NCBI GenBank assembly: GCA_025356505.1
Contig: JANXSV010000194.1
Location: forward strand, 1-5,564
DNA from: Methylovirgula sp.
GTDB taxonomy: Bacteria; Pseudomonadota; Alphaproteobacteria; Rhizobiales; Beijerinckiaceae
Direction: 5' to 3'
DNA: 5,564 nucleotides
A model generated the notes under the pieces. That model worked only from the letters and a program-made list of their open reading frames with translations, searched no databases and had not been told where the DNA came from. Positions 1,514 to 5,564 of the stretch are shown here, piece after piece (position 1 is the first letter of the stretch; each line of letters starts with the position of its first letter). A program made the translations under genes and the position numbers.

Positions 1514-1561
1514 ATGTGCCGCCTCATCTGGGCGGCACCTTTGTTTTATCGCCGACGTTAA
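1514..1561 (+). CDS. Possible 15-residue leader peptide ending in Arg-Arg-Arg
   Basis: The frame from the ATG at 1514 reads [15 protein letters not shown] and stops at TAA (1559-1561), 22 bases before the argD ATG. The last three codons are CGC, CGA and CGT, all arginine, and one more arginine codon is at position 3. Amino-acid operons are often controlled by leader peptides rich in the end product, and argD-argF make arginine, so the content fits. There is no Shine-Dalgarno before the ATG, but the predicted transcript start is about at the ATG, so it could be a leaderless message, as known for the trp leader of Sinorhizobium. Against it: the hairpin at 1516-1538 precedes the arginine codons, which does not fit classical attenuation, and a run of three CGN codons can occur by chance. 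This is a hypothesis. Confidence 0.3.
1516..1547 (+). terminator. Strong GC-rich hairpin with T-rich tail ahead of argD (terminator, attenuator or 5' stabiliser)
   Basis: GTGCCGCC (1516-1523) and GGCGGCAC (1531-1538) form a perfect 8-bp stem around a 7-base loop, followed by CTTTGTTTT (1539-1547). By shape it is a good intrinsic terminator. It lies between the predicted argD promoter and the argD start, so it may be an attenuator or a stem that protects the mRNA end. Alternatively it ends an unrecognised small RNA transcribed from further upstream, although I found no good promoter for one in 1350-1450. Confidence 0.6.
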
Positions 1562-1583
1562 AAGCCTCGCCTGCGTGGAGATT

Positions 1584-2798
1584 ATGCCCGTGTCAGCCAC
1601 TGTTTCGCCGATGTTGCCTACATTTGCCCGTGCACCTCTTGCCTTCGAACGCGGCGAGGGGGTTTGGCTGTTTGACAGCGACGGCGAGCGCTATCTCGAC
1701 TTTGGTTCGGGCGTTGCTGTAAATTCGCTGGGGCATTTGCATCCGCATCTTGTTGCGGCATTGTCGGCTCAAGCTCATAAGTTATGGCATACATCGAACC
1801 TCTATCACATTCCAGAAGGCGAGCGGCTGGCGCAACGGCTGGTGGATTCAACTTTTGCCGATTATGTGTTTTTCACAAACTCCGGAGCCGAAGCGCTGGA
1901 ATGCGCCATTAAGACCGCGCGGAAATTCCACGCCAGTCACGGTCACCCCGAACGGTTTCACATCATCACTTTTGAGGGTGCCTTCCACGGGCGCACACTT
2001 GCGACCATTGCCGCAGGTGGCCAACAAAAATATATCGATGGGTTCGGACCCAAGGTCGCGGGCTTTGATCAAGTACCTTTTGGCGACCACGAAGCTTTAA
2101 AGGCCGCGATAGGGCCGCAAACGGCTGCAATCCTGATTGAACCGATTCAAGGTGAGGGCGGCGTACGCAGCGTACCACCCTATTGTTTGCGCGGGCTGCG
2201 CGCCTTGTGCGACGAACACGGACTATTGCTGATATTTGACGAGGTTCAAACCGGCGTGGGCCGTACAGGCAAATTTTTTGCACACGAGCACTCCGGCGTT
2301 GCTCCCGATATTATGGCAATTGCCAAGGGGATTGGCGGCGGTTTCCCGATGGGTGCCTGCTTGACCACGCACGCAGCGGGCGAGGGAATGACGCCCGGAA
2401 GTCACGGATCAACTTTTGGCGGCAATCCCCTAGCAATGGCGGTAGGAAATGCTGTGCTGGATATTGTTTTAGCGCCTGGGTTTTTCGACCACGTGGCAAA
2501 AATGGGGCTTCTGCTCAAACAGCGACTGGCTGAACTGAAGGACCTCCATCCGAAAATCATCGCCGAAATTCGCGGAGAAGGTCTGTTGATGGGATTGAAG
2601 TTGCATGTGCCAAACACGGATTTCACGACGCAGGCGCGCTTGCACAAATTGTTGACGATTCCGGCCGGAGACAATGTCGTGCGACTTCTGCCGCCGCTTA
2701 TTATCAGCGAGGATGAGTTGGCCGATGGTTTCACCCGGCTGGACGCCGCCTGCACCTCGCTGGAGCAAACACTGTTGCAAAAGGAATTGACCGTATGA
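1584..2798 (+). CDS. argD: Acetylornithine aminotransferase
   Basis: Cytoplasmic PLP enzyme, class-III aminotransferase, that converts N-acetylglutamate 5-semialdehyde plus glutamate to N-acetylornithine, the fourth step of arginine synthesis; many ArgD proteins also serve lysine synthesis. At 404 residues the length is normal. Visible: [31 protein letters not shown] in outline at residues 21-51; SGAEA (100-104) for PLP phosphate binding; AFHGRT (133-138); EPIQGEGG (186-193); [13 protein letters not shown] (218-230) with the PLP-ring Asp219; the Schiff-base lysine K248 in IAKGIGGG; and [10 protein letters not shown] (275-284). The frame is open back to an ATG at 1383, but those residues are unlike the family. 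ATG 1584 gives the usual short N-terminus. Its GGAG (1577-1580) is only three bases away, whereas GTG 1590 would have nine; ATG 1611 lacks a site. argF overlaps its end by four bases. Confidence 0.97.
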
Positions 2799-3727
2799 CG
2801 AAACCCGTCAGGCACTTTTGCGATCTGAGTGATTTCTCCGGGGCGGACCTGCGCCGTATTCTCAATGAGGCTTCGCGCATCAAGGCTTTGCGGCGCAAAG
2901 GCAAGGTCGCTGCCGACCGACCTTTGACCGGCAAGACACTTGCAATGATTTTCGATAAGCCCTCCACCCGCACGCGCGTGTCTTTTGATGTGGGCATGCG
3001 AGAGCTTGGCGGCGAAACGCTCATGCTCACCGGCACCGAAATGCAGCTCGGCAGAGGCGAGACCATCGCCGACACCGCGCGGGTTTTGTCCCGCTTTGTC
3101 GATTTGATCATGATAAGAATTCTTGATCACGAGGCCATGCTTGAACTGGCAGCTCATGCCTCGGTGCCTGTGATTAATGGCCTGACCAAACGCACCCATC
3201 CTTGTCAGATCATGGCGGATGTCATGACATTTGAAGAGCATCGCGGGCCAATCCAAGGCCGCACTGTGGCCTGGACCGGCGACATCAATAATGTGATGAC
3301 GAGCTGGATTCATGCGGCGCAATTATTCGACTTTACCTTGCGTATTGCTGCTCCACCGGCCTTTCCTTTGCCAAAAGCCATCGCTGACTGGGCGCGAGAG
3401 CATGGGACTAAGTTGGTTTTGACTGACGATGCCTCAACCGCAGCGCGCGGCGCTGATGCTGTGGTCACTGACTGCTGGGTTTCTATGGGAGATGAAGAGG
3501 AGGAGCGCTTCCGTCACAATTTGCTCAAGCCATACCAAGTCAATGAACGGCTGATGTCGCTTGCGGTGGAGGACGCGCTATTTATGCACTGTCTGCCGGC
3601 GCATAGGGGCGAAGAAGTCACAGACGCGGTGATGGACGGCCCACATTCAGTGGTTTTCGATGAGGCGGAAAACAGGCTTCACGTGCAAAAGGGCATCATG
3701 AATTGGTGTCTTGGAGCAGAAGCATGA
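2795..3727 (+). CDS. argF: Ornithine carbamoyltransferase (anabolic)
   Basis: Cytoplasmic enzyme, normally trimeric, that joins carbamoyl phosphate and ornithine to give citrulline and phosphate. The 310-residue length is normal. The carbamoyl-phosphate domain has STRTR (57-61) for phosphate binding and HPCQ (135-138). The ornithine domain has TGDINNV (161-167), DCWVSMG (226-232) with the ornithine-binding Asp226, Ser230 and Met231, and [11 protein letters not shown] (265-275) with catalytic Cys266. In many relatives the 161-167 stretch reads GDGNNV, so the Ile is a mild departure; all the catalytic residues I can place are present. The start overlaps the argD stop as ATGA, and AAGGA lies nine bases ahead, inside argD, so translational coupling is likely. 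The pairing with argD points to a biosynthetic rather than catabolic role. It overlaps hslO by four bases at its end. Confidence 0.97.
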
Positions 3728-4699: not shown

Positions 4700-5564
4700 T
4701 TGAGCGATCAGGCCAGACCACGCAAAATTTTATTTGTCCAGACGCAAGCTGAAAATGCTGGAGCGCAGGAGATCTCGCGTATTCTGGGTGAAAGCCTTGC
4801 TGCGCGGGGCCACGACGTTCATCACCTGTTTTTTTTCCGGCGCACTTCGGGATTTGATAATCAGCCGAATACGGAATTTTGTGCGCTGGAGCGGCCATCA
4901 AATCCCCTCGCTTTTGCGCGGTTTCTCCTTGCGCTGTTCCACGCGTTCCGGCGAATTAAACCGGATGTGACGTTGCCTTTGCAACATTATGGCAACGTTA
5001 TCGGCGGCATCGTGGCGCGTGTCGCGGGACTGAAAAACATCGTTGCCTCGACAACATCGGCACCTGCAACTATGAATGCTGCCGTGCGCATGGCTGATCT
5101 TGCCTGCGGCACGCTGGGTGTTTACGACAAGATTATTGTCAATTCAGAAGATACCCAAAAAGACTACGGCAAATGGCCGTTAAGCTACAGAAATCGGATG
5201 GTCAGAATTGATCACGGATTTGAAGACAAAACGGCGCATACCTCCAAATTTGACGCGCGCGCGTTGCTCAATTTGCCCCAGAACGTCACTCTGCTTGGAT
5301 GCGTTGCCCGATTGCACCCTTTGAAATGTCTTGACGCCAATATCGCGTTGCTTTCTGACAATGCTGATTGGCACTATGCCCACGCCGGGCAGGGAGCTGA
5401 GCTCGAACCATTGCTCGCACTGGCGAAGTCGCTGGGATGCCTTGAACGGGTTCATTTTCTTGGCGAAATAAGCCCCAAGTCCATCGGCACGTTCTTGGCT
5501 GCCCTTGATGTTTTTGTGTTTCCAAGCGCTTCCGAAACGTTTGGTCTCGCGCCAGTGGAGGCGG
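4700..5564 (+). CDS. Glycosyltransferase, GT-B fold, family-4-like (partial at the 3' end)
   Basis: Probably transfers a sugar from a nucleotide-sugar to a glycan or lipid acceptor, perhaps for surface polysaccharide or lipopolysaccharide; donor and acceptor are unknown. The frame runs 288 codons to the window edge without a stop; the family usually has 340-400 residues. The N-terminal Rossmann half begins RKILFVQTQAENAGAQEISR (residues 8-27), with the AGAQE segment where relatives have a GG-AE loop. The C-terminal half shows CVARLHPLKCLD (201-212) with donor-phosphate residues Arg204 and Lys209, AGQGAELEPLLALAKSLG (229-246), VHFLGEI (251-257), and SETFGLAPVE with Glu279 and Glu287 (the E-X7-E signature). 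The TTG start was chosen because AAAGG (4688-4692) lies seven bases ahead and it gives a normal short N-terminus; no in-frame ATG occurs before residue 125. It starts 16 bases after the hslO stop, so co-transcription is likely. Cys210 replaces the usual Gly after the lysine. Confidence 0.9.
   Translation, partial: MSDQARPRKILFVQTQAENAGAQEISRILGESLAARGHDVHHLFFFRRTSGFDNQPNTEFCALERPSNPLAFARFLLALFHAFRRIKPDVTLPLQHYGNVIGGIVARVAGLKNIVASTTSAPATMNAAVRMADLACGTLGVYDKIIVNSEDTQKDYGKWPLSYRNRMVRIDHGFEDKTAHTSKFDARALLNLPQNVTLLGCVARLHPLKCLDANIALLSDNADWHYAHAGQGAELEPLLALAKSLGCLERVHFLGEISPKSIGTFLAALDVFVFPSASETFGLAPVEA

Follow-up and report, generated by a model that had tools for sequence, protein, structure and literature searches.

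In the DNA upstream of argD in Methylovirgula sp., promoter-like hexamers, a hairpin and a T-tract follow one another in a fixed order, and this arrangement is conserved at argD across the order. Judged from the leaders compared, the conserved feature of the site is the start-site hairpin with its T-tract, and not the short frame ending in arginine codons for which an initial annotation had singled the site out. We consider it moderately probable that the hairpin and T-tract (positions 1516-1547) constitute a start-site attenuator of argD, in the form of an intrinsic terminator.

The argD upstream region and its start-site hairpin

Within the window (the whole stretch of 5,564 nucleotides that was analyzed), the acetylornithine transaminase gene argD occupies 1584-2798 on the + strand (NCBIfam NF002325 and TIGR00707, both above cut-off) and is followed by argF, encoding ornithine carbamoyltransferase, at 2795-3727 on the same strand (NCBIfam NF001986 and TIGR00658, both above cut-off). 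These genes share an ATGA overlap at 2795-2798, and a further ATGA overlap at 3724-3727 joins argF to hslO, the Hsp33 chaperone gene; given these overlaps, hslO probably shares a transcript with the arginine genes and is coupled to them. The cell-cycle regulator gene gcrA (706-1230, - strand) scores above the cut-off of the Pfam GcrA model and below that of the NCBIfam GcrA model, and it is divergent from argD in the window and in many relatives. The same orientation is given for Sinorhizobium in a transcription-start study, whose relevant passage is silent on a leader (PMC3616915). Methylobacterium loci in which no gcrA was found beside argD still keep the hairpin. A partial MFS transporter gene (1-501, - strand) and a partial group-1 glycosyltransferase gene (4700-5563, + strand) lie at the two contig ends. 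Rfam gave no match in the window at E-values up to 1 and none up to 0.1 in loci of five relatives, and a tRNA scan of two loci found none.

On the + strand, a -35-like hexamer, TTGACC, stands at 1479-1484, with TTGAC at the same place in most relatives, and is followed after 17 nt by a predicted -10-like hexamer, TAATGT, at 1502-1507. The initial annotation had the ATG of the short frame coincide with the predicted transcription start; because of this hexamer pair, a start near 1514 is plausible, but a consensus promoter scanner called no promoter in the argD upstream region of the window. The likely ribosome binding site of argD, GGAG, lies at 1577-1580 (+ strand).

The hairpin (1516-1538, + strand) comprises nine pairs, one of them G-T, and is followed by CTTTGTTTT; the T-tract itself, TTTGTTTT, spans 1540-1547 on the + strand. 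A terminator scanner scores the element as a terminator, and its conservation across the order likewise points to a likely intrinsic terminator, although the interrupted T-tract may make it a weak one. The stem begins approximately 2 nt after the predicted start, the promoter-like pair ending at 1507. Taken as a whole, the 93-nt leader folds no more stably than its shuffles (z 0.00), and the case for the hairpin thus rests on conservation.

Leaders were compared from four sources: the window's family (f1, 43 genera), 80 titled loci found by ArgD, the remainder of the order, and further orders of the class. A loosely defined hairpin was present in 158 of the 164 readable leaders of the family and named-Rhizobiales sets, 150 of these being distinct, and was absent from six (L110, L119, L010, L022, L151 and L174). 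A stricter test required a stem of at least six pairs whose start lay no more than 28 nt from the -10 hexamer, followed by at least six T in nine positions. It was applied to 143 leaders, namely the 150 distinct ones minus four repeats and three without a recognizable promoter, and 131 passed, against 3.8 expected from shuffles; with the six dropped leaders restored, 133 of 148 passed. Among the other members of the order (69 leaders, six of which lacked a promoter), 49 of the 63 tested passed against 2.1 expected from shuffles and 14 failed, and inspection by eye found no such hairpin in L247, L250 and L252. For the other orders, sampled with one leader per family (63 leaders, eight without a promoter), the corresponding figure was 11 of 55 against 1.0 expected. 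The stems there are mostly of different sequence, the five examined mostly differing from GCCGCC, and none of the 30 leaders from the order of genome G502 passed. Beyond the order, the element occurs patchily. In three leaders of other orders (L289, L294 and L298), inspection by eye showed terminator-like hairpins with long loops downstream of the argD promoter, which the counting rule had missed.

At the genome level, a pattern consisting of TTGAC, a spacer, GCCGYC-loop-GRCGGC and a split T-tract was found in 113 of 149 family genomes, with 116 matches in total, or about one per genome; a reversed-pattern control gave none. In all 30 of the 116 matches that were fetched as loci, argD lay less than 300 nt downstream, and at least three other matches, compared by eye, lie away from argD (G133:C69, G085:C21 and G022:C2). 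The element is specific to argD. The window copy itself misses the strict pattern, its T-tract being shifted by one base. A looser pattern gave nine matches in the window genome versus 17 in the reversed control; the argD copy is the richest in T among these matches, with 8 of 14 positions, the other re-found matches having 2-6.

A promoter was scored in 124 of 185 leaders, and in 122 of these 124 the stem base lies 3-16 nt after the -10 hexamer. The loop between the fixed stem parts measures 3-11 nt in 176 distinct hairpins. Across these 176, in which the T-tract is split, T occupies tail positions 3, 4, 9 and 10 in 91-99% of copies; the copies had been selected for at least five T in 14, which favors T generally and not those four positions. 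Of the 176 hairpins, 121 retain the first pair beyond the core (shuffled mean 91.3, maximum 109), but pairs 2-6 show no clear excess over shuffles and the core hardly varies, so that covariation backs the hairpin only modestly. These pairs were counted on core-anchored arms; a MAFFT alignment was discarded because loops of unequal length misplaced the 5' arm.

Proposed attenuation and competing readings of the hairpin

If the element works as an attenuator, transcripts would likely start near 1514 and likely terminate at the T-tract, giving short RNAs of approximately 35 nt whenever the polymerase did not continue into argD-argF; this step would likely be the regulated one. From the position of the stem base relative to the -10 hexamer and hence to the predicted start, there is no room for an upstream anti-terminator: the RNA is predicted to start only a few bases before the stem, which would leave no upstream sequence to form one. 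A ribosome would hardly be able to load before the polymerase reached the T-tract. Since there is neither room for an anti-terminator nor time for a ribosome, control would have to act on the polymerase or through something that binds the hairpin. Read-through could accordingly be set by the polymerase itself (its elongation rate), by Nus factors, or by a protein or RNA binding the hairpin.

The chief competing reading of the hairpin is that of a 5'-end stabilizer, a cap structure shielding the argD-argF mRNA from 5'-end-dependent decay without terminating transcription. A position near the RNA 5' end is where a stabilizer is expected, and the stem lies near the predicted end in almost all scored relatives. 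However, a stabilizer needs no T-tract, yet T is kept at the four tail positions, and T-tracts also accompany the different stems of other orders. We therefore regard this reading as unlikely. It is highly improbable that the palindrome is a DNA operator at which an argD repressor would overlap the start site: its inverted-repeat form and its occurrence roughly once per genome, where a single gene starts, would suit an operator, but loops varying from 3 to 11 nt would alter the spacing and face of a dimer site, the stems of other orders have other sequences, and the T-tract is on one side only. We give equally little credence to a role in terminating an upstream transcript or insulating argD from read-through, for despite the terminator-like shape on the + strand, the gcrA gene of the window, like that of many relatives, points the other way, and the hairpin has the promoter directly 5' of it.

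Arginine-run frames in the window and in two other lineages

More than half of the frame at 1514-1561 (+ strand) consists of the hairpin plus the T-tract, an overlap that the initial annotation had not noticed. It had proposed a candidate arginine leader peptide here, and rereading of the coordinates found the frame as described: 15 codons from the ATG at 1514 to the TAA at 1559-1561, ending Arg-Arg-Arg-stop with CGC-CGA-CGT at 1550-1558 (+ strand), then 22 nt to the argD ATG at 1584. Dinucleotide shuffling of the 76-nt leader produced ATG frames ending Arg-Arg-Arg-stop in 4 of 20,000 cases and those ending Arg-Arg-stop in 11 of 4,000, a rarity that is post hoc because the frame had been picked out of 5.5 kb.

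The expectation that relatives would keep the frame or its Arg run was contradicted by the comparison. ATG frames ending Arg-Arg-stop occurred in none of the 111 non-Bosea family-set leaders, none of the 69 order-set leaders and none of the six dropped leaders; with GTG starts allowed, the family set yielded one (L053) and the order set two (L197 and L253). Furthermore, the Arg codons lie 3' of the T-tract, which ends at 1547, and therefore cannot govern it. The suggestion that a ribosome stalled at 1550-1558 controls argD translation also fares poorly, since from the coordinates such a ribosome would crowd the ribosome binding site under arginine scarcity, whereas feedback would need the opposite sign. 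Given the lack of a counterpart in the 111 non-Bosea leaders and the position of the Arg codons past the T-tract, the frame is probably not functional; the GC-rich stem together with a chance CGC-CGA-CGT accounts for it more plausibly than a working leader peptide does. In the argD-argF-hslO genes of the window, CGC is the commonest Arg codon (48% of 67) and CGA accounts for 9%.

The leader-peptide proposal holds better elsewhere, as such frames occur in the Bosea clade and in family f112. The 38 Bosea-type leaders, which were gathered by the string CGACGA-stop, cover the whole Bosea clade: all 36 Bosea-clade rows of the ArgD tree (support 99), together with L164 and L180, carry a 15-codon frame after the start-site hairpin, for example MRMTARREVGSWVRR followed by a stop. 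In loci L061-L098 (e.g., L083:2274-2497), the conserved frame ends CGA-CGA-stop. The start, stop, length and control codons are conserved across the 38 leaders, whereas codons 8-13 change freely and the spacing varies from 25 to 86 nt before the frame and from 82 to 124 nt after it. The length is 15 codons in 37 of 38 and 16 in L043, where the start became AAG and the preceding codon became ATG, moving the start by one codon. CGA-CGA recurs at codons 6-7 in 37 of 38 frames, and CGA makes up 0.6% of the 829 Arg codons in 36 argD genes of this type. The stops are TAA in 34, TGA in two and TAG in two.

RNA structure may share in this constraint, because the CGA pairs show no third-base variation and the stop is followed directly by conserved bases able to pair with codons 14-15. 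A consensus hairpin lies at codons 14-16, and a single downstream CGTCG could serve as pairing partner for either CGACGA copy. In L164 (genome G107, genus g12), a divergent Bosea-type frame, MKRLVWTGCPSRERR, keeps Arg-Arg-stop; the available pairing partner of its CGACG lies upstream, not downstream, which hints at conservation of the codons and not of the fold. Genome searches for CGACGA-N18-CGACGATRR (matches in 150 of 199 genomes) and for CGACGACGATAR (154 of 289 genomes) were uninformative, the patterns being too short or too common in coding sequence.

The second lineage emerged from the class sample with one leader per family, in which ATG/GTG frames ending Arg-Arg-stop occurred in 5 of 63 leaders (L291, L298, L310, L326 and L360); of these, L310, which led to family f112, was followed up. 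In its order, that of G502, 43 genomes were searched, of which 36 had a match and 30 were fetched (L362-L391); 32 f112 genomes had a match. All 26 fetched f112 leaders contain at least two CGA codons in the Arg run, which abuts the stop in 22 leaders and ends one codon short of it in the other four, and CGA constitutes 2.7% of the 714 Arg codons in 30 argD genes of the order holding f112 and f166. The f112 frames span 15-41 codons and end 48-110 nt before argD; their peptides differ almost everywhere outside the Arg run, and the control codons are conserved. In family f166 of the same order, none of the four leaders has such a frame, and three of the four show another GC-rich hairpin before argD. 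Over the full set of 93 leaders from other orders, ATG/GTG frames that end Arg-Arg-stop are present in 27, where shuffles would give 2.5.

On this sequence pattern, the Bosea-type and f112 frames are strong candidates for arginine leader peptides, and these tiny frames probably sense arginine. Most Bosea-type leaders have no T-tract and no clear intrinsic terminator after the frame, and C outnumbers G in the RNA that follows the stop (C 40% and G 27% between stop and argD in the Bosea type; C 41% and G 22% in f112); from the hairpin to argD, other family leaders have C 33% and G 31%. Rho or translational control is thus a likelier guess than terminator-based control. A ribosome stalled on the CGA run would cover a Rho site or a structure behind the stop, and we infer that such coverage would explain why the Arg run abuts the stop.

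These lineages bear on a reading of the window frame as a leaderless peptide that senses arginine: ribosomes would pause on the Arg run before the stop when arginine is short, and the device could coexist with the hairpin. The discovery of a second lineage with Arg-run-stop frames raised this reading from very unlikely to rather unlikely. The shuffle counts for Arg-Arg-Arg-stop speak for it, as do the Arg run directly before the stop, shared with the 38 Bosea-type and 22 of 26 f112 frames, the coexistence of both devices in Bosea leaders, and an ATG at the predicted start, as in the leaderless trpL of Sinorhizobium (PMC10117765). Against it count the lack of a counterpart in the non-Bosea family and order sets, the run of the frame through the hairpin with its Arg codons past the T-tract, the gap between stop and argD of only 22 nt, compared with 82-124 nt in the Bosea type and 48-110 nt in f112, and the codons CGC-CGA-CGT in place of CGA-CGA. 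Residues shared between the window frame and the L164 peptide were judged by eye. The window lies on a long branch of the ArgD tree, where its placement is not firm (no starred set holds it), so that any common ancestry of the window and Bosea frames is conjectural. Because the genus is represented by one genome and the nearest ArgD is approximately 75% identical, a peptide specific to the genus is conceivable.

Published analogues and arginine control

The best published analogue of the argD start-site element is the rimP-leader, a predicted attenuator of rimP-nusA-infB for which a protein acting on the terminator is proposed (PMC2965389). Both are short conserved, predicted terminator hairpins with a conserved stem sequence in the 5' UTR of one operon in many species, and neither has a visible anti-terminator. 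The rimP-leader differs in its gene and in its G-rich 5' arm, that of the argD hairpin being C-rich; a further difference is that the predicted start site is where the argD stem begins. The main text of that paper contains none of the terms argD, Rhizobi and arginine (PMC2965389).

For the window frame, the closest likeness is to the leaderless Sinorhizobium meliloti trpL/peTrpL, which also belongs to an alphaproteobacterial biosynthetic operon and has its ATG at the RNA 5' end, with a peptide of 14 residues; however, the trpL frame is part of a known Trp attenuator, whereas the window frame runs through the hairpin and has its Arg codons after the T-tract (PMC10117765). The nearest bacterial precedent found for the Bosea-type and f112 frames is the carA leader of Pseudomonas aeruginosa, an arginine-linked operon reported to have a leader peptide, arginine control and possibly attenuation by pyrimidines (PMC4997734). 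It concerns a gammaproteobacterium and another gene, and the likeness is one of description. His-type leader peptides resemble these frames in placing end-product codons in a short leader frame, and in a Salmonella his-leader assay, Arg-Arg pairs containing the rare CGA stalled ribosomes strongly (PMC4046918). Unlike the his-type leaders, the Bosea-type and f112 frames have their control codons at or almost at the stop, and most Bosea-type leaders are without a clear intrinsic terminator after the frame. Among open PMC papers, no description of the argD leader element or of the arginine-run frames was found, which is weak evidence.

ArgR (PF01316) was detected in none of 60 genomes, comprising that of the window and 59 relatives, with the control positive in 9 of 14. 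This agrees with a report that gammaproteobacteria conserve ArgR whereas the other classes of proteobacteria lack it (PMC5343134). As a tentative proposal, ArgR-less alphaproteobacteria may use two interchangeable argD leader devices: a start-site terminator without room for an anti-terminator or a ribosome in most Rhizobiales, and a leader peptide ending in a stalling-prone CGA run and stop in Bosea and f112, with Bosea having both and the window perhaps a leaderless in-between. Under the peptide device, a ribosome short of charged arginine tRNA would cover the RNA beyond the stop and so keep Rho or a structure off argD. With ArgR in none of the 60 genomes, the argD element, present about once per genome across the order, and the arginine-run frames in two other lineages offer concrete, testable places at which to ask how these bacteria tune arginine synthesis.
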